Part shown: piece after piece, positions 1 through 9,839 of the stretch
How positions within the stretch are numbered: position 1 is the first letter of the stretch
How the letters are laid out: every line of letters starts with the position of its first letter
DNA from: Anaerolineales bacterium
GTDB lineage: Bacteria; Chloroflexota; Anaerolineae; Anaerolineales; UBA6663
Length of the DNA: 33,585 nucleotides
Direction: 5' to 3'
Assembly: GCA_020845955.1 (NCBI GenBank)
Contig: JADLEU010000287.1
Location: 1 to 33,585 of the forward strand
The notes under the pieces: generated by a model
What the model was told of the DNA's origin: nothing
Databases searched by the model: none
What the model saw: the letters and a program-made list of their open reading frames with translations, nothing else
Translations under genes and position numbers: made by a program

Positions 1-416
1 AGTCACCCTGGGTTAACGGTTGGCTGCACACCGGGGATCTGGTCTACCGGGACGACGCCGGCTATCTGTTCCTGGTCGGCCGGACGTACGAAACCATCAA
101 CGTGGCCGGGCACAAAGTCTATGCGCCAGAAGTCGAGCGGGCGCTGGCCAGCCACCCCGCCGTGGCCGAAGCAGCCGTGGTAGGTCAGCCCGATGCGCTG
201 CGCGGGGAGATGCTTGTGGCGCACGTCGTTCTGAAGGCAGGTAGGCAGGCCAGCATCGCCGAGCTGCGCGCGCATTGTGAGACGCGCCTGGCTGCCCACA
301 AGCTGCCCCGGCGGATGCGCTTTGTCGGCGATCTGCCGCGCACGGCCACCGGCAAGGTCAACAAGCAAGCGCTGAGCACGATGGTCCTTGAGGATCAGAC
401 AGGCGCGCTGGCCTAG
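1..416 (+). CDS. Acyl-activating enzyme (AMP-forming ligase), C-terminal part only
   Basis: Partial gene; its 5' end lies outside the window and the reading frame is open from base 3. The visible 137 residues are the end of the large domain and the mobile C-terminal domain of the ANL superfamily (acyl-CoA synthetases, acyl-AMP ligases, NRPS adenylation domains). Seen in order: GWLHTGDL (core motif A7, with the ATP-ribose-binding Asp), VGRTYETINVAGHKVYAPEVE (the A8 hinge region), and PRTATGKVNKQ near the end, which holds the catalytic Lys of motif A10. The family activates a carboxylic acid with ATP to an acyl-AMP and usually passes it to CoA or a carrier protein. The substrate cannot be told from this fragment. 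Four unassigned genes follow on the same strand with short gaps, so it may head their operon. Confidence 0.9.
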   Translation, partial: SPWVNGWLHTGDLVYRDDAGYLFLVGRTYETINVAGHKVYAPEVERALASHPAVAEAAVVGQPDALRGEMLVAHVVLKAGRQASIAELRAHCETRLAAHKLPRRMRFVGDLPRTATGKVNKQALSTMVLEDQTGALA

Positions 417-453
417 CCAGCGCTGTGATCATCACACGCCAAGGAGGCATGCT

Positions 454-1008
454 ATGGGCGGCGGAGGCGGCGGCAAAGGCGGCGGGGGCAGCAGCACGAG
501 CAGCAAGATCGAGGTGATCAACAGCGGCACAACCAATGTGGACGTAGACAGCACGGTCGAGGTCCAGGGTCTGGACAACATCCAGCAGAAGCTGACCCTG
601 GACCTGCCGCAGCCGCTGAAGACCGAGAGCCGGCAGGAATTGGCCGTCACACAGCCCATCGTTACCGACAGCCGCAACGCGATGGCGCTGGATATCCGGC
701 CGATGACGGTCGACCTGTGCCTCAATGTCAACCTGGGACCGCCCGCCCCTACTTGTGTTCGCCAGCCCTATCATCACCATTTTGGGCTGACGCTGTTCGG
801 CCTGGAGCTCCTGGGCTTCAACTTCTCAGGCGAATCGCAGACCATCGTGCAGGAGGCGCCCAGGCAGCCCCAGGTCGTGTGGGGCGCTCCGGAGTGGAGC
901 CACCACGAACACGGGCACAAAGGAGCCGGCGTTCGGGTTGAACGAGGCCAGGCCAGCGCGCGGCCGTCCGAGCCGCGCGCTGGCCTGCGCATCCGGTTAG
1001 GATCCTAG
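454..1008 (+). CDS. Unassigned protein with glycine-rich N-terminus (184 aa)
   Basis: Not recognised. The start is ATG 454, preceded at 441-447 by a strong AAGGAGG ribosome-binding site; an upstream in-frame start at 388 would overlap the ligase gene. Residues 1-17 are almost only Gly, Ser, Lys and Thr. Residues 18-80 look like repeated beta strands with alternating hydrophobic and polar residues (KIEVINSGTTNVDVDSTVEV and similar). A conserved-looking centre follows with two Cys and the stretch PYHHHFGLTLFGLELLGFNF. The tail is His-rich, then Arg-rich. There is no signal peptide or clear membrane helix, so a cytoplasmic or surface-assembled beta protein is plausible. It lies 37 bases after the acyl ligase and 11 bases before the next gene, which suggests one operon. 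A structural role is inference only. Confidence 0.8.
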   Translation: MGGGGGGKGGGGSSTSSKIEVINSGTTNVDVDSTVEVQGLDNIQQKLTLDLPQPLKTESRQELAVTQPIVTDSRNAMALDIRPMTVDLCLNVNLGPPAPTCVRQPYHHHFGLTLFGLELLGFNFSGESQTIVQEAPRQPQVVWGAPEWSHHEHGHKGAGVRVERGQASARPSEPRAGLRIRLGS

Positions 1009-1019
1009 AAGGCCAGACA

Positions 1020-1838
1020 ATGGCCCGCACCGACACGCCAGAGTACGACGTGCTGGCTCACGCCGCCGACGAGCCAATCGTCCTGGTTGGCCCGCCGCAC
1101 GCCCTGCAGGGTGAGCTGCGCCTGCACAATCCCGGCGCGCAAAAACTTGTCCTTCGCGATGCCCGGCTGCGCGGCGAAGCGACGGAAGCGGTCCAGGCGC
1201 GCCTGCCATCCGTGCCCGAGTATGTCCTGCGGCGCATCGTGCTTCGGCCGGGAGAGCTGCGGCAGATCCCTCTGCGCGTGCCGCTCAGCCCGCACATACC
1301 CCCCGGCGAGTATCGCGGTCTGCTGGAGGTCGCCGGCCGCACGCGCCAAGTCGTCATGTACATCACCGAGGTAGTCCAGTTGGACATTTCGCCAGTGCCA
1401 ATCGTGGTCGAGAACCACCCGGGCGCGACGGTCGTCAAGCGCGCCGTCTTCACCAACTCTGGCAATGTTCCCTTGACCATCGGGGATATCGGCCCAGTGG
1501 TGCTGGACGACACGCTGCTGGAGTGCCGCACCGGCCGGGCCGCCATCGCCGCGGTCGGCGACAGCATCGAAAGTCTGGACGATTACTTTGCGGAAGTGGT
1601 TCGCCAGACCAAGGCAACCCTGGAGCAAACCGGCCTCCTGCGGGTGCACCTGATGGCGGACCCGTTGACGCTGGCGCCGGGCGAGGTCCACCCGGTCGAC
1701 ATTGAAGTCCGAGTGCCCGACAACCTGGATCGGCGTGCGCGCTACCTGGGCGTGGCGGCGCTGTACACCGGCAACCTAGAAATCCTGCTTGTGCCCACGA
1801 ACACGGCCCGCCCCAAGCGCGGCAAACGTGCTTCTTAG
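1020..1838 (+). CDS. Protein of two Ig-like beta-sandwich domains (272 aa)
   Basis: No family name can be given. ATG 1020 lies 11 bases after the previous stop, with AGAAGG just upstream. The sequence reads as two beta-sandwich modules. Residues about 18-120 contain GELRLHNPGAQKLVLRDARL and then LRPGELRQIPLRVPLSPHIP-PGEYRGLLEVAG, the pattern of NEW3/CARDB-type Ig-like domains, in which 'GEY.G.L.V' marks the last strands. Residues about 125-262 repeat it with VFTNSGNVPLTIGDIGPVVL and LAPGEVHPVDIEVRVPDNLD. There is no signal peptide, whereas such domains are usually extracellular. The Lys/Arg-rich end (RPKRGKRAS) could bind nucleic acid or acidic lipid. The two following genes carry a similar beta half, so the three products may assemble together (inference). 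Confidence 0.8.
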   Translation: MARTDTPEYDVLAHAADEPIVLVGPPHALQGELRLHNPGAQKLVLRDARLRGEATEAVQARLPSVPEYVLRRIVLRPGELRQIPLRVPLSPHIPPGEYRGLLEVAGRTRQVVMYITEVVQLDISPVPIVVENHPGATVVKRAVFTNSGNVPLTIGDIGPVVLDDTLLECRTGRAAIAAVGDSIESLDDYFAEVVRQTKATLEQTGLLRVHLMADPLTLAPGEVHPVDIEVRVPDNLDRRARYLGVAALYTGNLEILLVPTNTARPKRGKRAS

Positions 1839-1874
1839 CTGTGGCGGACTGCCAAGCTCACCAGGAGGCAACCC

Positions 1875-2732
1875 ATGCAACGCGGTCGTTTTGCCAGCCC
1901 CTATAATTTGCCCGATTGGATGGCCCTGTATGGCTTCGCACCGCGCCGCGCCAGGCCGTTAGGCCAGCCGCCCCGCGACACCACGGATATGCTGAGCCAA
2001 ATGGCCGAGGCCTACAATGCGCTGTACGCGCCCGTTGTGGAAAGCCTCACTCGGTTCTGGACCGGGGGCGCCGCTAATCCATGGACTGCGCCGGACCCGA
2101 GTGCCAATTGGCCCGGCCAGCAGGTCTGGCCCGGTGGGCGCACCCACAAGCACGGGCGTCGCCACGAGCACCGCTGTGACTGCGGCTGTGACGAGGGAGA
2201 GTGCGATGGCTGCTACACCGACGACTGTCACTGCCGCTGCTGTATCCATGACGCCGACCTGGTGGTCCATGCCAGGCTCGGCGAGCGGCGGATCGTGCCC
2301 TTGACCATTGAGAACCCACGCCGGCGCGAACGCCAGATCAAGCTTGAGTTGAGCAGTTGGACGACGCGCAGTGGCTCGCCGGCCGCCGTCAAAGCACGCC
2401 TGCTGCCGCCGACCGAGTTCACCCTCGAGCCGTGCCAGGATCGCGACCTGATCCTTCTGGTCGAGGCAGAGATCCAGTCCGCCCCGCAGCCGGCGCCGGG
2501 CGATGTTTCGGGCCGCCAGCAGGCCAGCGAGTTTGCGGGCTTGTCTGCAGCCGCGCCGGCGGGCGCCGCCGACACCGGCGAGCGCCGCCTGCCCGACATC
2601 GAGCAATGCGAAGTGTACTATGCCGATTTGCGCGTCGCAGGGTGTGATGTCCGCCCGGTGCGCATCGCGCTGGCGCTGCTGCCGCGAGCCTGCGCCTCGC
2701 ACCCCATCGATTGTAGCTGCGGCTGCTGCTGA
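1875..2732 (+). CDS. Cys/His-rich protein with Ig-like C-terminal half (285 aa)
   Basis: Not recognised. The start ATG 1875 has AGGAGG 8 bases upstream. Residues 1-62 (NLPDWMALYGF, then a helix with SQMAEAYNALYAPVVESLTRFW) look like a short amphipathic helical module. Residues 91-125 form a dense metal-ligand cluster: His 91, 93, 97 and 99, then Cys 101, 103, 105, 110, 113, 118, 120, 122 and 123, with His 119 and 125. Residues about 127-200 and 226-270 resemble the Ig-like beta domain of the neighbouring proteins (VPLTIENPRRRERQIKLELS; FTLEPCQDRDLILLVEAEI), split by an Ala/Gly/Pro-rich linker. The protein ends in a second Cys cluster (Cys 273, 280, 282, 284, 285). It may bind Zn, Fe-S or another metal, or be disulphide cross-linked. 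It has no signal peptide. Confidence 0.8.
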   Translation: MQRGRFASPYNLPDWMALYGFAPRRARPLGQPPRDTTDMLSQMAEAYNALYAPVVESLTRFWTGGAANPWTAPDPSANWPGQQVWPGGRTHKHGRRHEHRCDCGCDEGECDGCYTDDCHCRCCIHDADLVVHARLGERRIVPLTIENPRRRERQIKLELSSWTTRSGSPAAVKARLLPPTEFTLEPCQDRDLILLVEAEIQSAPQPAPGDVSGRQQASEFAGLSAAAPAGAADTGERRLPDIEQCEVYYADLRVAGCDVRPVRIALALLPRACASHPIDCSCGCC

Positions 2733-2832
2733 CGTGTGATGAGGCTCGCGACCGACGGCTGCCGTTCCCGGCCGAGGCGCGACGGCGCGAAGTTCCGGCT
2801 GGCTGGCGCGGCTTGCATGATGCGCTTGGGTT

Positions 2833-3570
2833 ATGACCTCTCAGTCATTTGACTACGCCCAATGGCTGGAGGAGTTCATGTCGCGTTCGCTGGCCGACCA
2901 GCGGCGTGCCAGCGAACGCTATGGGGACGTTGTGCAGCGCATCTCGCGCGGCGAGCTGGACCCGGGCGAAGTACAAGGTGAATTCCTGCGGTTCGCGGCC
3001 GAAGCGGGAGTTGAGTACGCGCGTGACCTGGCAGAGTTAAGCTCGCGCTACTTCTTGGCCTTGCTCGACATCGGCCGCTCCTACAACGACCGCTTCTATG
3101 ATCAGGTATTGCCATCCGCGCGGCCCATGGACAGCCGTCCGGCGCCGCCTGAGCCGAGGCAGGTCGTCCTGGACCTCAGCGGCCAGCTAGGCCGAGAAGT
3201 CACAACCGGTTTTGTCATCGAGAACAAACGTTCTGACCCAGCCGACATCTCGTTTGTGGTATCGGACTGCGTTGACACCAGCGGTGGCGCCACCTTCCGA
3301 CCGCCGCTGACACTTGAGCCGCGGCAGCTGATGCTGCGTCCCCATCACGAAGCAGACATCAGGCTGCTTCTGCCGCTGCCGCCCGAGTTGTTCAAGGCCG
3401 GACACCAGTACCGCACCAAAATCGCCGTGCGCGGCTATGACGACCTAGAATTGCTCGTCAAACTCGCGGTGCAGCCGGCCGCTGAGCCAAGCACGCGGGC
3501 CTCAGCCGCCACCGCGCCGCGGGGGGCCCAACCCGCGCGGAAGAAGCGCACACATCATTCCCCACAATAA
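2833..3570 (+). CDS. Phasin/PhaE-like helical domain joined to Ig-like domain (245 aa)
   Basis: ATG 2833 is the first usable start and has no clear ribosome-binding site. Residues 1-95 are strongly helical and amphipathic (DYAQWLEEFMSRSLADQRR; ISRGELDPGEVQGEFLRFAA; YARDLAELSSRYFLALLDI). This recalls phasins and the PhaE subunit of class III polyhydroxyalkanoate synthase, but the match is by general character and not a proven family hit. Residues about 108-215 are an Ig-like beta domain (TTGFVIENKRSDPADISFVV; LTLEPRQLMLRPHHEADIRL; AGHQYRTKIAVRGYDDLELL). The tail is Ala/Pro-rich and then basic (RKKRTHHSPQ). It is separated by 100 bases from the Cys-rich gene. With the acyl ligase upstream, a granule-coat or polyester-synthase accessory role is a reasonable but unproven idea. 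Confidence 0.8.
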   Translation: MTSQSFDYAQWLEEFMSRSLADQRRASERYGDVVQRISRGELDPGEVQGEFLRFAAEAGVEYARDLAELSSRYFLALLDIGRSYNDRFYDQVLPSARPMDSRPAPPEPRQVVLDLSGQLGREVTTGFVIENKRSDPADISFVVSDCVDTSGGATFRPPLTLEPRQLMLRPHHEADIRLLLPLPPELFKAGHQYRTKIAVRGYDDLELLVKLAVQPAAEPSTRASAATAPRGAQPARKKRTHHSPQ

Positions 3571-3616: not shown

Positions 3617-4702
3617 ATGACAGACCCGAATGTGAGTTTCCCGTTTGCTAGTCCTGGGCAGGCCGGCCCAGGCCATCTGCCGCCTGGCTTGGCGAGGCGT
3701 GCCTACAGGTTGGTGGTTGTCTTATGCCTGGCAGCCGGACTGCTCTCGACGCGCGTGGCGTGGGCTGATCAGATCGTCCACATTGTCCAACCGGGCGAGA
3801 ACCTGTTTCGCATCGGCCTGCGGTATGGAGTAGGTTGGCAGTCGCTGATGGCCGCCAATGGTCTTGCCTCGACACAGATCTATGTCGGGCAGGCCCTGGT
3901 CATTCCGAGCCCAGGCAGCCCTACGGCAGCGCTCACCGCTGCTGTTCCATCGGCGGCAGTCCCCGCGCCTTTGCCCGCTGCCCCAAGCGGCACATACATC
4001 GTTCAACCCGGCGACACCTTGTGGCGGATCGCGCAGCGCCATCGCCTGACCCTGAGCGGCCTGATGGCGGCCAACGGGCTGGTTGAGCCCAACCGCATTT
4101 TCTCTGGGCAGACGCTGCTCATACCGGGCGCAGCGCCTGCCGCCGCCAAGCTGCTGTCGGTGACCGGCCAACCACAGGCGTGGCCGCTGGACTGCGAGGC
4201 CCGCTCGGCCGTCGACTGGGCCGCGTACTTCGGTACGGTCATTGACGAGGCCGACTTCGTCAGCCGGCTGCCGTTGTCCGACGACCCCGACCTGGGCTTC
4301 GTCGGCGATGTGCGCGGCCGGCCGGGGCAGTTGCCACCCGAGTCTTACGGAGTGCATGCTGGGCCGCTGGCGGCATTGCTGCAAGCGTATGGTCTGAGCG
4401 CTCGCGCGGCACGGGGCCTGACCTGGGACGCCGTGCGCGCCGAAATCGATGCCAACCGGCCCGTCATCGTGTGGGTGATCGGGCAGTCATGGCCAGGAGC
4501 AGCCGTGGACTACGCCGTCCCGTCATCTGGCCGGGTAACCCGCGTGGCCGCCTTCGAGCACACTGCCCTGGTGATCGGTTACAACGGCGAGTTCGTTTCG
4601 CTGCTGGATGGCGCTACTGTCTATCAAGCTTCGCTCGCACGCTTCATGGCTTCCTGGGGCGTGCTCGGCAATATGGCGGTGTTGTCAGAGCAGGCTTACT
4701 AA
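3617..4702 (+). CDS. Exported LysM protein with C39-like peptidase domain
   Basis: A cell-wall-associated protein of 361 residues from ATG 3617; an upstream TTG at 3578 is in frame but less likely. A hydrophobic segment at about residues 29-47 (YRLVVVLCLAAGLLSTRVAWA) fits a signal peptide or anchor with a long N-terminal region. Two LysM peptidoglycan-binding motifs follow: HIVQPGENLFRIGLRYGV...LVIPSPG and YIVQPGDTLWRIAQRHRL...LLIPGA. The C-terminal half matches the C39_2-like papain-fold domain. LDCEARSAVDW contains the probable nucleophile Cys193, and FEHTALVIGYNG the catalytic His315, followed by LLDG. Such domains are either peptidases or amidases of the wall, or inactive relatives; both main residues are present. 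A single-gene transcript is likely, since 700 non-coding bases follow. Confidence 0.88.
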   Translation: MTDPNVSFPFASPGQAGPGHLPPGLARRAYRLVVVLCLAAGLLSTRVAWADQIVHIVQPGENLFRIGLRYGVGWQSLMAANGLASTQIYVGQALVIPSPGSPTAALTAAVPSAAVPAPLPAAPSGTYIVQPGDTLWRIAQRHRLTLSGLMAANGLVEPNRIFSGQTLLIPGAAPAAAKLLSVTGQPQAWPLDCEARSAVDWAAYFGTVIDEADFVSRLPLSDDPDLGFVGDVRGRPGQLPPESYGVHAGPLAALLQAYGLSARAARGLTWDAVRAEIDANRPVIVWVIGQSWPGAAVDYAVPSSGRVTRVAAFEHTALVIGYNGEFVSLLDGATVYQASLARFMASWGVLGNMAVLSEQAY

Positions 4703-5402
4703 GGCAGACGCAGCGCCTACCTGGGCGCCCTCCCGGCCGGCGGCGCGTTGGCCTGCCGGCCGACTGGTGTTTTCGCTCAAAGCCATCGCTAACCCCCAAC
4801 CGGTCCCCGCCCAATTCTCGTTCAGACCGCCCGCCTCTAGCCGCCTGGCTGATGTCGAGCGGTTGCTCGTCAGCACCCCGGCCGTCATAGTAGCCAACGG
4901 CTGGCCATTCGCCGGCCCGACGAAGCGGCCACGGGCGACCGAGGCGGACGGCTTGCACGCCGCCCGCCAACACCAAGGCCTGGAGCGCATGGATCAGATC
5001 AGATTCACGGTGCTCGAAGAGAGCGGCTGTGTAATGAGTGGGCCGCAACGCAGCCATGACCTCATTGGTGATGACCTTGCGCCTGCTTGATTGTTCTGCG
5101 ATGCAGCCTGAGGCAAAGCCTCGGATCATGTAGGCGGAAACCCGACATGACCTCACCCTTTTGCTGACGCTGTGAACAGCCATAGGCCGATAGGCATTGG
5201 TTATCTTGGGTGCTAGATTGGTGAGGGGCCCGACCGCAAAATGGGCCTTCGCAGAGTTCGCTGCTGCTGGCATTCGGTCGAATGGCCGAGGCCATGGCGG
5301 CGCCGGCAGACCAAAGGATACTGGAGGTCCGTCATCACTGTGACGATTACGGAGGTGTGTGGCGAGCGGTATCGAGGCCTGTGATGAAAGAGAATTACAC
5401 CT
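4703..5402. other. 700-base gap without a recognisable gene
   Basis: No frame here shows a recognisable protein. The longest one, on the minus strand, overlaps the end of the LysM gene and the start of the PRC-barrel gene and has no domain pattern. The composition is less GC-biased from about 5080 onward. Two adjacent hairpins lie at 5108-5150 (listed separately). The stretch 5160-5402 presumably carries the promoter of the PRC-barrel gene, but no well-spaced sigma-70 boxes were found. Confidence 0.6.
5108..5150 (+). other. Tandem RNA-type hairpins, possible structured leader or ncRNA
   Basis: First hairpin: CTGAGGC (5108-5114), loop AAA, GCCTCGG (5118-5124), 7 pairs with one G-T. Second hairpin, after one base: TCATGT (5126-5131), bulge AGG, CGG, loop AAAC, CCG, ACATGA (to 5150), 9 pairs. 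CCTCACCCTTTT follows. The two could stack on each other. They lie about 250 bases before the PRC-barrel gene in DNA with no coding signal, so a structured RNA is possible; a weak terminator or chance is also possible. The strand is assumed to be that of the next gene. Confidence 0.35.
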
Positions 5403-6062
5403 ATGAAGCTTAAGAAGAACGCCCGCGTGGTGACGGCCGGCGGGCAGGCCGTAGGCGAAGTGGACCGCGTCGTTATGAACCCGCGCACGAAGGAAGTCAG
5501 TCACCTGGTGGTGCGCAAGGGGCTGCTGTTTCCTGATGACCGGGTAGTGCCCATAGATCTGATTGCTCGGTCGACAGATGGTCAGGTCATACTGCGCGAG
5601 GATGCCGGCGACCTAGAGCGATTGCCAGTCTTTGAGGAGACCCATTACGTGCCCCTGGACGACTACGAGCGGTCGCAGATGCCCGGGGGCCATTACGTGC
5701 CGCCCATGTATTGGTATCCGCCGCATCCGGTCGTGGGCTGGGGCTTGGCTGGCGGAGACTACTACGGTCCACCGAATGTGATCCGCACGGAGGAGAACAT
5801 CCCCACGGGCACGGTGGCTCTGGCTGAGGGCGCCAAGGTCATCAGCGCCGACGGCCAGCACGTTGGCAACGTCGAGCAGGTGCTGACCGATCCCCAGGCC
5901 AATCGCGCCACGCATTTCGTCGTTTCTTCGGGCTTGTTGCTCAAGACCCGAAAGTTGGTCCCGACCGCCTGGATTAGCGACCTAGGTCGCGACGAAGTTC
6001 ACCTGGCAGTCGGCGCCCACCTATTAGGTGAGCTGCGTGAGTATCAGCCACAGGCGCAGTAG
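5403..6062 (+). CDS. Protein with two PRC-barrel domains (219 aa)
   Basis: The start ATG 5403 begins directly with the domain (MKLKKNARVVTAGGQAVGEV). Domain 1 spans residues about 1-70 and contains VGEVDRVVMNPRTKEVSHLV and PDDRVVPIDLIARS. Domain 2 spans about 138-215 with VALAEGAKVISADGQHVGNV and KTRKLVPTAWISDL. Both show the usual PRC-barrel order: glycine turn, 'G.V..V..D', then the basic 'R.VP...I' strand. The linker is rich in Pro, Tyr and Trp (GGHYVPPMYWYPPHPVVGWG). PRC-barrels occur in photosynthetic reaction centre subunit H, RimM and many stress-linked bacterial proteins, so the exact role is unknown. The ferritin-like gene follows after 46 bases; the pair may be a stress operon. Cytoplasmic, no signal peptide. 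Confidence 0.87.
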   Translation: MKLKKNARVVTAGGQAVGEVDRVVMNPRTKEVSHLVVRKGLLFPDDRVVPIDLIARSTDGQVILREDAGDLERLPVFEETHYVPLDDYERSQMPGGHYVPPMYWYPPHPVVGWGLAGGDYYGPPNVIRTEENIPTGTVALAEGAKVISADGQHVGNVEQVLTDPQANRATHFVVSSGLLLKTRKLVPTAWISDLGRDEVHLAVGAHLLGELREYQPQAQ

Positions 6063-6108
6063 CAGTAAAAGGATAATCTCATCGAGTAGTGATCGGAGGT
6101 AATAAGAC

Positions 6109-6600
6109 ATGGATCTGACGCGCGATCAGTTGATCGAACATCTGAACGATGACCTGGCACGCGAGTATCAGGCCGTCATCGCCTACGTGGTGTACTCGCA
6201 GGTGATCAAGGGCGCGGCCTACATGAACATCGCCCAGGAGTTGGAAGTGCATGCAAAGGAGGAGCTGCAGCACGCGCTCACCATTGCCCGGCAGATCGAC
6301 TACCTGGGCGGCATGCCGACCAGCGCCCCGAAGCCTGTGAAGACCTCGGAAGTTGCCGAGGTCATGCTGCGCTTCGACCTGGAGAACGAGAATGAGACTG
6401 TGCGCCAGTACCGCGAGCGCGTACGCCAGTGCGAAGCCTTGAGCGAATTTGCCATGGCCGAGCACATCCGCGAGATCCTGGTTCAGGAGCAGGGGCACCA
6501 GATTGACCTGGCGACTGCCCTGGGCCAGGACGTCCCCGACGTAGCCGCGTCGCCCGCCAAGGAGACCTCGGGCGACGGAATGCGGAAAGGGACTCGTTAG
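6109..6600 (+). CDS. Bacterioferritin-like ferritin (diiron four-helix protein)
   Basis: A 163-residue ferritin-like protein, close to the usual bacterioferritin length of about 158. A good GGAGGT ribosome-binding site (6096-6101) precedes ATG 6109. The diiron ligands are all visible at bacterioferritin spacing: Glu19 (DDLAREYQAV), Glu52 and His55 (EELQH), Glu94, Glu127 and His130 (EQGH). The haem-ligand Met of bacterioferritin (next to the second Glu, MxH) is replaced by Leu53, so haem binding is doubtful. The protein probably oxidises ferrous iron with oxygen or peroxide and may store or detoxify iron; whether it forms a 24-mer shell cannot be seen. The last 20 residues are a flexible charged tail. 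It follows the PRC-barrel gene on the same strand. Confidence 0.88.
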   Translation: MDLTRDQLIEHLNDDLAREYQAVIAYVVYSQVIKGAAYMNIAQELEVHAKEELQHALTIARQIDYLGGMPTSAPKPVKTSEVAEVMLRFDLENENETVRQYRERVRQCEALSEFAMAEHIREILVQEQGHQIDLATALGQDVPDVAASPAKETSGDGMRKGTR

Positions 6601-6619
6601 GTCAGGCCATCGTTTCCGA

Positions 6620-7195
6620 ACGCCTTTTGGCCTTCGAGTTGTCGGAGGGCGCGCCGCCAACGACCCGGCAGCTCGCGATTGCGCCGACCGTTGCTGAGGC
6701 GGCGCCGGCCACCGAAGTTGAACCGTTCGCCACAAGCCTGGCCACACAAGTCGCCTCGCCAGCGTTGCCGCCACCGCCGCGTTCGACGCGCGACCTTGGC
6801 CGGCCCAGCAACTGCTTGTCGAGCCTGACGCCCAAACGCCGACGATGGCGGGCAGCAGGCAGATCAGGCAGCCGCCCTGGCCGCGCCGGATGACGAGCCA
6901 CTCCTGCCGGACCTATATGCTCGCAGCCATCGTCCAACCGGCCGTAGGCTGAGATCGGCTATCCGTTGGCCGCGTTTCGTAGCCCGCACCGCGCCCCGTT
7001 GCCACTCGGTCGCCCGATTCCGCGCGGGAACCGGCACTGCATGCGCCCTCCGCCGGCTGAAAACCTGACGACCCACCCTTGCGCCGCCAGCCACCCCCGC
7101 ACCGCCTGGCGGGTGTGAAGGCTGGCGTTGTCCGCCAGCGCGTACAGCCGGCCGCAAGATCGGCAGCCGCAGCAGGTTGGCTTCGTCTTCGGCCC
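6620..7195 (-). pseudogene. Decayed IS630-type transposase remnant
   Basis: The minus strand shows scattered pieces of an IS630-like DDE transposase in different frames. Around 7195-7152 reads EDEANLLRLPILRPA, resembling the 'DE' acidic motif. Around 7145-7070, shifted by one base, reads YALADNASLHTRQAVRGWLA, the hallmark second Asp 'DNA..H....V..WL'. Further on, RLVANGSTSVAGAASATVGA resembles the C-terminal 'VAN....S...L..A' helix. The roughly 70 residues normally between the first two motifs are missing, and the third catalytic Glu region cannot be found. So this is an internally deleted, frameshifted copy. Terminal repeats were not identified. It fills the gap between the ferritin gene and the tRNA. 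Confidence 0.5.
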
Positions 7196-7261
7196 CTACA
7201 AGAGCGCCCCGCAGCCCTTTCGCTCACATGCCTTCTGCCTGGCAGGGCCGAGGCGACAGTT

Positions 7262-7291
7262 CTGGCACAATTGAGGGGCATTTGGTATACT
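7262..7291 (+). promoter_or_regulatory. Extended -10 promoter for tRNA-Thr and uridine kinase
   Basis: CTGGCA (7262-7267, 4 of 6 to TTGACA), an 18-base spacer, and TATACT (7286-7291, 5 of 6 to TATAAT) preceded by TGG, an extended -10. The expected start, 6-8 bases downstream, falls within 1-3 bases of the tRNA 5' end at 7300, as is common for tRNA promoters. Confidence 0.6.
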
Positions 7292-7299
7292 TTGCCCAC

Positions 7300-7372
7300 G
7301 CCACCTTAGCTCAATCGGCAGAGCACCCGCTTCGTAAGTGGTAGGTTTCGGGTTCAACTCCCGAAGGTGGCT
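7300..7372 (+). tRNA. tRNA-Thr (anticodon CGT)
   Basis: A full cloverleaf can be drawn. Acceptor stem GCCACCT (7300-7306) pairs with AGGTGGC (7365-7371), discriminator T 7372. The D stem is GCTC/GAGC. The anticodon arm has loop TTCGTAA (7331-7337), giving anticodon CGT, which reads ACG (Thr). The T stem is TCGGG/CCCGA around loop TTCAACT. The outermost anticodon-stem pair is C-T, a mismatch. The 3' CCA is not encoded, so it must be added by the nucleotidyltransferase. Confidence 0.95.
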
Positions 7373-7376
7373 TTGA

Positions 7377-8000
7377 ATGCCTCCCCCGCCCGTGGTCATC
7401 GGCCTGGCCGGCGGCACCGGGTCTGGCAAGACCACGGTCGCCAACGTCATCTTCAGCCGCGCCGGCGCCGAGCGCCTGGCCTACGTCCCCCACGACGCCT
7501 ATTACCGCAACCGCGACGATCTGCCCCCCGCCCTGCGCGCAGCCAACAACTGGGACCACCCCGATGCGCTGGAGACCGACCTGATGGTGGCGCACGTCCG
7601 CGCGCTCAAGGCTGGCCAACCGGTAGAGCTGCCGGTGTATAACTTCGCTGCCTACGCCCGCACCGGCCGCACGATCCACGTCGAGCCTAAGCCCATCATC
7701 CTGGTCGAGGGCATCCTGATCTTCGCTGACCCCCGGCTGCGAGCACTGTTCGATATGAAGATCTTCGTGGACACCGACGCCGATCTGCGCTTCATCCGCC
7801 GGCTGCAGCGCGACATCGCCGAGCGCGGGCGCACGGCCGAGTCAGTCATCACGCAGTACCTGGCGACGGTGCGGCCGATGCACCTGGAGTTCGTGGAGCC
7901 GTCCAAGCGGTATGCCGACATCATCGTGCCGGAGGGCGGGCGGAATGAGGTGGCGATGGAGATGATCGTGGCGCGGGTGAAGAGCGTAGCGGGGGCGTAG
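7377..8000 (+). CDS. udk: Uridine kinase
   Basis: A 207-residue P-loop kinase that phosphorylates uridine and cytidine to UMP and CMP with ATP or GTP in pyrimidine salvage. The Walker A motif GGTGSGKTT is at residues 12-20. Further family marks are PHDAYYRN (substrate-binding Asp/Tyr), NNWDHPDALETDL, the 'PVYNFAAYART' loop, ILVEGILIF (Walker-B-like strand) and RRLQRDIAERGRT in the lid. Length and order match bacterial Udk. The ATG is only 4 bases after the tRNA 3' end, with no ribosome-binding site outside the tRNA, so tRNA processing would leave a nearly leaderless message. A phosphoribulokinase-like relative is the only realistic alternative. Confidence 0.93.
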   Translation: MPPPPVVIGLAGGTGSGKTTVANVIFSRAGAERLAYVPHDAYYRNRDDLPPALRAANNWDHPDALETDLMVAHVRALKAGQPVELPVYNFAAYARTGRTIHVEPKPIILVEGILIFADPRLRALFDMKIFVDTDADLRFIRRLQRDIAERGRTAESVITQYLATVRPMHLEFVEPSKRYADIIVPEGGRNEVAMEMIVARVKSVAGA

Positions 8001-8240
8001 GCTAAGCTGATACCCTTTGCCGCGCATTGACACGAACCAGCACGATGAACCTGGGTCAAGGCCCCGTTCACCTTCATCTCCCTCAGTTCGCCATTGCCTC
8101 ATTTCCTTCCGCTCCCCGGCCTTTACTCCCCCGCCTCCCTTGAGTCCCCAGATCTCCATTTCCCCGCTCTTCCATCTCGACAATTTCTCCACATTTCCCC
8201 GCTACAGTAGTTCGGATTATGTGACCAAGGAGACGCAAGC
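8001..8240. other. Pyrimidine-rich spacer with ribosome-binding site for the next operon
   Basis: From about 8066 to 8203 the plus strand is strongly C/T-biased (TTCACCTTCATCTCCCTC and similar runs such as ATCTCCATTTCCCCGCTC). No reading frame is supported. The end carries AAGGAG (8227-8232), the ribosome-binding site of the adaptor gene. No convincing promoter was found, although one must lie here if the operon is independent. Confidence 0.6.
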
Positions 8241-9839
8241 ATGAAGGCGCGAACGCGGTGGATCTTGGGCGGGGCGGTGGTGATCGTGGCCGGGATGGCG
8301 GCGTTTGGGCTGCCGGCCGTGCGTGGGCTGCGCGCCGCCGGGCGGGGAGCGCCAGGGGACGAGCTGGCGACAGGGCAGGTGACGACTGGGACGGCTATCA
8401 CGGCGGTCGAGTCGTCGGGGCCGATCGAGCCGCTGCAGTCGGCGTCGCTGGCGTGGAAGACGACCGGCACGGTGGCCACGGTGGCGGCGCAGGTAGGCGA
8501 CCAGGTACGGGCCGGCGACGTGCTGATGACGCTCGACCCGGCCAGCGCACCTGCCAGCGTCATCCAGGCGCAGGGCGAGCTGGTCGCGGCCCAGAACGCG
8601 CTCGATGATCTGCTCAACCCCAGCGCGCTGAGTGTGGCCAACGCCGAGAAGGCGGTGGCCGACGCTGCCGAGGCGGTCGAGCGCGCCCAGCGCGACCTAC
8701 GCTACCTGACCAACCCGGACCTGAATTATTACCAGGACCAGGTAGCGAGGGCGGAGCAGGCGCTGCTGGCGGCGCAGCAGAACGCCGAGAAGACAGGCCT
8801 GGGCAGCCCGGCGCAGGCGCTCGAAACGGCCCGTAAGGACCAAGAGACCAAGACCAACCAACTCAACGACGCGCGCAGCGCGCAAGAGCAGTGCCCGGGC
8901 TGCACGGTGGTGTTCATCAACGCCACCGGCCGGCGCATGTCGCTGGCAGACGCCGAGGCGCAGTACAACGACGCGGTCGACGCGCTGCGTGTGGCCGAGA
9001 TCAATTACGAGCAGGCTGCCGCCAGCGGGCAGGACGCAATCGAGGACTCCCAGGCTGCGCTGGACGACGCGCAAGCCAACCTGGCCGCCGCCCAGCACGA
9101 ACCCGACGCGCTCGACCTGGCACAGAAGGAGGCGGCGCTGGCGCTGGCCGAGGCTAACCTGGCCGACGCCCAGGAAACGCTCGGCGCGCTGCGGAACGGT
9201 CCCGATCCCGACGACGTCGCCGCGGCCGAGACCCGCATCCTGGTCGCGCGAGCCACGGTGGACGCGCTGGCGCTGCGGGCCCCCTTCGACGGCGAGGTGC
9301 TGGCGGTCAACTACCTGCCGGGTGACCCGGCCTCGCAGAGCACGCCGGCGGTGCGGCTGGCCAACCGCGCGCGGCTGCACGTCGACGTCTCGGTGGACGA
9401 AACCGACGTAGGCCTGGTGAGCGTGGGCAACCCGGTGACGCTGACAGTGGACGCCTGGCCCGACCTCAGCCTGGCCGGCCAGGTGGCGCGGGTGGAGACC
9501 TTCGGCGAGACAGTGCAGGGCCTGGTGCGCTACACGGTGCGGGTGGACCTGCGGGAGAGCGACCCGCGCTTATACTTGAACATGACGGCCAACGCCAGCA
9601 TCGTCACAGCCGTACAGGAGGCGGCGCTGGCAGTGCCGCTGGACGCGATCCAGTTTGACGACGCCGGCGAGTTTGTGAACCGGGTGCGGGCTGACGGGAC
9701 GGTCGAGCGCGTCAACGTGATCAGCGGCGAGATCGCGGGCGACCTGGTCTACGTCAGCGGCAGTCTGCAGCCGGGCGACCGGGTGCAGTTGATCCTGCCC
9801 GAGACGCCGCCCGACAATGGGTTCCCCTTCGGGGGCTGA
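8241..9839 (+). CDS. Membrane-fusion adaptor (HlyD/YknX family) of an ABC exporter
   Basis: A 532-residue adaptor. The N-terminal membrane helix is at residues about 5-28 (RWILGGAVVIVAGMAAFGL). The first half of the barrel-sandwich domain follows (VESSGPIEPLQSASLAWKTT...VGDQVRAGDVLMTLD), then an unusually long Ala/Gln/Asp-rich coiled coil at about 110-345. The second half is VDALALRAPFDGEVLAVNYL, followed by a beta-barrel (VDVSVDETDVGLVSVGNPVT) and a C-terminal domain. In YknXYZ/MacAB systems this protein sits outside the membrane and works with the ATPase and permease encoded next. The coiled coil holds a CPGC pair (Cys218, Cys221), which is uncommon. It is the first gene of a five-gene operon; ATG 8241 has AAGGAG at 8227. 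Confidence 0.92.
   Translation: MKARTRWILGGAVVIVAGMAAFGLPAVRGLRAAGRGAPGDELATGQVTTGTAITAVESSGPIEPLQSASLAWKTTGTVATVAAQVGDQVRAGDVLMTLDPASAPASVIQAQGELVAAQNALDDLLNPSALSVANAEKAVADAAEAVERAQRDLRYLTNPDLNYYQDQVARAEQALLAAQQNAEKTGLGSPAQALETARKDQETKTNQLNDARSAQEQCPGCTVVFINATGRRMSLADAEAQYNDAVDALRVAEINYEQAAASGQDAIEDSQAALDDAQANLAAAQHEPDALDLAQKEAALALAEANLADAQETLGALRNGPDPDDVAAAETRILVARATVDALALRAPFDGEVLAVNYLPGDPASQSTPAVRLANRARLHVDVSVDETDVGLVSVGNPVTLTVDAWPDLSLAGQVARVETFGETVQGLVRYTVRVDLRESDPRLYLNMTANASIVTAVQEAALAVPLDAIQFDDAGEFVNRVRADGTVERVNVISGEIAGDLVYVSGSLQPGDRVQLILPETPPDNGFPFGG

Follow-up and report, generated by a model that had tools for sequence, protein, structure and literature searches.

The closest described counterparts of the locus analysed here are the proteins of polyester (PHA) granules, type I polyketide synthase (PKS) operons with an adjacent acyl ligase and, for one of its products, P4, the ASH/PapD/MSP-like proteins (CEP192, HYDIN, VAP and the periplasmic PapD chaperones). 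With the granule proteins (phasins, and PhaE with class III PhaC) the locus has in common a helical protein coupled to a condensing enzyme and an acyl-CoA chemistry, but it differs from them in giving no PHA synthase match and no significant phasin match, and in that P4 adds a PapD-like domain. As in the PKS operons, KS, AT, KR and ACP are found over threshold with a ligase behind the PKS, whereas here four or five non-enzymatic proteins, none of a known family, are also present and a methyltransferase is fused C-terminally to the ACP. To our knowledge, type I PKS operons do not usually come with a dedicated set of structural, non-enzymatic proteins, and our literature search did not turn up a description of an operon of this kind. 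Residues 109–214 of P4 share their predicted fold with the ASH/PapD/MSP-like proteins; P4 differs from these in having no signal peptide (by hydropathy), in being fused to a helical hairpin and in its linkage to a PKS, and the identity is only 10–19%.

The ligase–P1–P4 block in two genera

The window, that is the whole stretch of 33,585 nucleotides analysed, is one complete contig (C287) of an Anaerolineales genome (G000) of 6.06 Mb in 431 contigs, rated 100% complete with 4.4% contamination. Two further contigs of the same genome, C117 and C294, are considered below, together with a genome from another genus of the same family (G005). The features of the window are as follows.

3–416, + strand: ANL acyl-CoA ligase, C-terminal part (AMP-binding_C); the gene runs past the contig start
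454–1008, + strand: P1, 184 aa, Gly-rich start and repeat body; orthologue on G005 contig C99
949–987, + strand: perfect 16-bp inverted repeat (loop of 7 nt) within the coding region of P1, at its 3' end
1020–1838, + strand: P2, 272 aa, beta-rich; orthologue in G005
1875–2732, + strand: P3, 285 aa, Cys/His-rich cluster and C-terminal domain; orthologue in G005
2175–2243, + strand: Cys cluster of P3, with CHCRCC common to P3 and its G005 orthologue (alignment)
2833–3570, + strand: P4, 245 aa, helical hairpin, PapD-like domain and basic tail; orthologue in G005
2854–3117, + strand: two long amphipathic helices of P4, residues 8–38 and 44–95 (AF2 model, amphipathicity)
3157–3474, + strand: PapD/ASH/MSP-like domain of P4, residues 109–214 (fold match of the predicted model)

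The original prediction described the end of an ANL ligase followed by four genes, and this arrangement is present: AMP-binding_C matches the ligase fragment with E 3.9e-26 and four co-directional open reading frames follow, the gaps from the ligase through to P4 being, in order, 37, 11, 36 and 100 nt. The top NCBIfam models for the fragment are CoA ligases, with scores that, for a fragment only, fall far under the full-length cut-offs. Strong ribosome-binding sites precede two of the four genes, as had been noted, namely P1 (CCAAGGAGG) and P3 (CCAGGAGG); that of P2 is weak and no clear site was found for P4.

In G005, contig C99 begins in the C-terminal half of a ligase, behind which orthologues of P1 to P4 are arranged as in the window. 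Since these are 60% (over 129 aa), 53%, 50% and 42% identical to their counterparts in the window, respectively, we take all four to be genuine genes. The 3' neighbour of P4 is a LysM–C39 protein in the window and, by inspection, a phosphofructokinase-like gene on the opposite strand in G005; it is therefore the block that is conserved and not the neighbourhood. The linkage with an acyl ligase is seen in two Anaerolineales-related genera, both uncultured, and the concern that the four genes might never occur together elsewhere does not hold. Short N runs at about 412 and 860 of C99 shift the frame inside the P1 orthologue, so that its full frame cannot be read there.

Profile searches of sampled genomes found relatives only in the window's own genome and in G005, whether with P4 in 396 genomes of the class, with P3 in 400 genomes of the order or with P3 and P1 in 400 genomes of the phylum; weak matches in the phylum (E 8e-4 to 0.009 over about 30–96 positions) were taken as chance. 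The profiles were built from two to four sequences and distant relatives may escape them. A scan of public contigs, with poor patterns, returned a single match, Anaerolineales bacterium UBA6663, which is the same contig as C99. With sampled genomes and poor scan patterns these results do not prove that the block is absent elsewhere. A phage or mobile origin was considered and rejected: there was no significant match in PHROGs, no relative of P1, P2, P3 or P4'' (a longer relative of P4, described below) on plasmids and, with the few patterns used, none of P2 or P3 on viral contigs.

The four proteins

None of P1–P4 gave a match above threshold in Pfam or NCBIfam, in agreement with the view that they belong to no known family. 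The suggestion that the products lack signal peptides and are cytoplasmic in character is supported by hydropathy, which revealed no signal-peptide-like or membrane segment in any of the four; the highest mean over 19 residues is 1.47 (in P2), compared with 2.01 in the downstream LysM protein. These previously undescribed proteins are probably structural.

P1 had been described as a Gly-rich beta protein. The Gly-rich start is there, but it is restricted to approximately the first 12 residues, and the body is instead a short repeat with a 14-residue spacing (LPQPxxTE / VTQPxxTD). The inverted repeat in the 3' end of its gene folds better than all but one of 200 shuffles (z −3.6); nothing like it was found in the G005 block. 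P2 is predicted to be beta-rich from an AF2 model of low confidence (pLDDT 43.6). The double Ig-like fold proposed for it is not proven: its two halves did not match each other when compared, and the match to NPCBM_assoc reached only E 0.096. P3 is Cys/His-rich as described, with the CHCRCC motif kept in G005. Its C-terminal domain is probably related to the PapD-like domain of P4, judging from an hhalign probability of 65 between the two and from a search of a small group of loci, in which the P4 profile matched this domain with E 0.0019.

The AF2 model of P4 (mean pLDDT 78) predicts helices at residues 8–38 and 44–95, with an amphipathicity exceeding that of ~97% of shuffles, and a beta-sandwich at 109–214. 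The best fold match of the predicted sandwich is the ASH domain of CEP192 (6fvi; Z 11.3, rmsd 1.9 over 102 residues). P4 is thus predicted to consist of a long helical hairpin and a PapD/ASH/MSP-like domain, the latter having been overlooked earlier. PapD-like domains have many different roles, and this likeness of fold shows no function.

A probable upstream polyketide synthase

A longer relative of P4, P4'', with two helical repeats and a P4-type C-terminal domain, is found on contig C117. It precedes a type I PKS, and its stop codon overlaps the start codon of the PKS as ATGA in both genomes. C117 and C294 share an exact end overlap of 127 bp, as adjacent contigs of an assembly graph typically do. 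C294 carries the remaining part of the PKS (KR, carrier protein and methyltransferase), followed by the N-terminal half of an ANL ligase that runs to the contig end. Across the two joined contigs KS, AT, KR and ACP all score above the Pfam threshold, and KS, AT and ACP, the domains by which a type I PKS is recognised, lie on one protein. The domain order is KS-AT-KR-ACP-methyltransferase; Pfam found no DH, ER or thioesterase domain in the PKS pieces read. By inspection, the acyltransferase carries the motif HAFH, which we take to be the one usual for malonyl units. The NCBIfam models nearest to the methyltransferase are phthiotriol dimycocerosate methyltransferase and the fatty-acid O-methyltransferase Mtf2, at 142 and 131 bits against cut-offs of 300 and 400; the present domain thus lies below both cut-offs and differs from these enzymes in being fused to a PKS.

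The arrangement in G005 is very similar. Contig C232 ends in P4'', C18 opens in the last part of a P4''-like gene, whose overlap with the PKS is again ATGA, and continues with PKS, methyltransferase and the N-terminal half of a ligase, and C99 begins in the C-terminal half. Between the two genomes, identity is 78% for those parts of the PKS and methyltransferase that are sequenced, and 53% and 73% for the two ligase halves; the genes upstream of P4'' differ. On C117 these are, in a row at 4207–9284, an S8 subtilase-like gene, a TPR-CHAT protein and a zf-HC2 protein, possibly a separate CHAT-protease unit.

In neither genome is the ligase gap bridged by a contig; measured against a full-length ligase of G000, the stretch absent between the two halves amounts to roughly 150 residues in G000 and to about 100 in G005. 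The match on C294 is the only strong AMP-binding match in G000 that is cut off after its N-terminal part, and the halves are complementary, which favours their belonging to one gene, although we infer the join. Because the contig ends and the gene order repeat in both genomes, the likely unit is P4''-PKS-ligase-P1-P2-P3-P4, the order of PKS and P1–P4 being alike in the two with the ligase gap unspanned. Elsewhere, the Brasilonema region nearest to the PKS part of C294 is an NRPS-PKS cluster that, by annotation, contains nothing resembling this unit, and at seven loci where relatives of the methyltransferase stand alone, the fetched stretches showed no relative of P1–P4.

Possible roles of P1–P4

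We tentatively favour, at a little under an even chance, the explanation that P1–P4 make up the 3' half of a polyketide operon of seven genes, whose accessory proteins scaffold the synthase or coat its lipid-like product. The operon itself is well supported: the same block occurs in two genera with diverging flanks, C117 and C294 overlap, the ATGA is present and the ligase halves are complementary. Set against it are the unspanned ligase gap, the unequal conservation of the ligase halves and the occurrence of the block in two genomes only. The amphipathic hairpin and the PapD-like domain of P4 suggest a scaffold or coat role for P1–P4 and P4'', and the many roles of PapD-like domains count against it. 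The PKS is considerably better conserved between the genomes than P1–P4 (78% compared with 42–60%); a lower conservation than that of enzymes is often seen for structural proteins, and we count this difference in favour of a structural accessory role.

In such an operon the PKS would make a malonyl-derived, KR-reduced, O-methylated acyl chain, a reduced and O-methylated product being a reasonable guess from the domains present, and the ligase would activate substrate or product as a CoA ester. The hairpins of the P4-type proteins (P4'' and P4) would bind a hydrophobic surface, of synthase or product, or each other, their PapD-like domains would hold P1–P3 and the enzymes, and the result would be a cytoplasmic scaffold or coat around synthase and product. 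A more far-reaching form, in which the product is packed or handled in a cytoplasmic body, an inclusion of an undescribed kind, inside a scaffold of hairpin/PapD-like, repeat and Cys-cluster proteins, we regard as unlikely. If the operon is real, a polyketide pathway brings its own non-enzymatic structural proteins, and the P1–P4/P4'' unit could reveal a new way to organise a type I PKS or to store its product. P1–P4 also give a small set of unknown protein families for testing.

The original prediction proposed that the genes may build and coat an acyl- or polyester-based body or related scaffold. The linkage to an acyl ligase and the hairpin of P4 agree with this; the polyester part is not supported, and the coated body is something that we infer. 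A PHA granule system would account for a helical P4 next to an acyl ligase, and P4 had been likened to phasins and PhaE. The amphipathic hairpin stands, but the only phasin match of the P4 family, Phasin_2, is confined to one of its four members and is not significant (E 0.18; 12.5 bits, with the cut-off at 24.9), and no phasin is among the matches listed in the fold search with P4, where the Ig-like domain fills the list. The P4 helices may still be distant kin of phasins. The class III PHA synthase model TIGR01836, which matches in a Caulobacter control, found nothing in the window's own genome (rated 100% complete), the other PhaC classes being covered through this model alone. Nor does this model find a PhaC-like enzyme near the block, where a search for one had been proposed; the probable upstream partner is a type I PKS. 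A granule is therefore unlikely on the synthase and phasin results and, with a unit that most likely holds a PKS, we rejected it as highly improbable. The PKS and the second P4-like protein make a polyketide chemistry more likely than a polyester one, and the polyester idea gives way to one that can be tested, KR-reduced, O-methylated acyl chains.

Other readings keep the PKS. The P4-type proteins may be partner subunits that dock, activate or stabilise it, as PhaE does for PhaC, with P1–P3 as soluble cofactors and no body or coat. This is possible, if rather unlikely: the overlap of P4'' with the PKS start codon in both genomes fits subunits produced in equal amounts, and the predicted hairpin of P4 would agree with this, but P1–P3 and the presence of P4-type proteins at opposite ends of the unit are left unexplained. 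That the accessory proteins carry a polyketide lipid to the envelope and present it there, again without a cytoplasmic body, seems to us quite unlikely. MSP-like domains act at membranes in eukaryotes, P4 has an MSP-like fold match and a LysM-C39 protein comes after it in the window; yet P1–P4 are without signal peptide or membrane segment, there is no transporter within the unit and G005 lacks the LysM gene at that place. Very unlikely, finally, is a separate locus, in which ligase and P1–P4 have a role of their own and PKS and P4'' are unlinked to them. The ligase gap, spanned in neither genome, and the differing conservation of the halves (53% and 73%) would allow it, but the halves are complementary and non-overlapping at contig ends in both genomes, and the protein next to the PKS, P4'', is a member of the P4 family, which was found in no other genome searched.

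The LysM protein directly 3' of P4 (window 3617–4702) has two LysM repeats and a Peptidase_C39_2-like domain, at a place not kept in G005. Further ketoacyl-synthase matches in G000, five on contig C311 and two on C284, one of the latter in a reading frame that also has AMP-binding domains, likely belong to other PKS or NRPS-PKS clusters.
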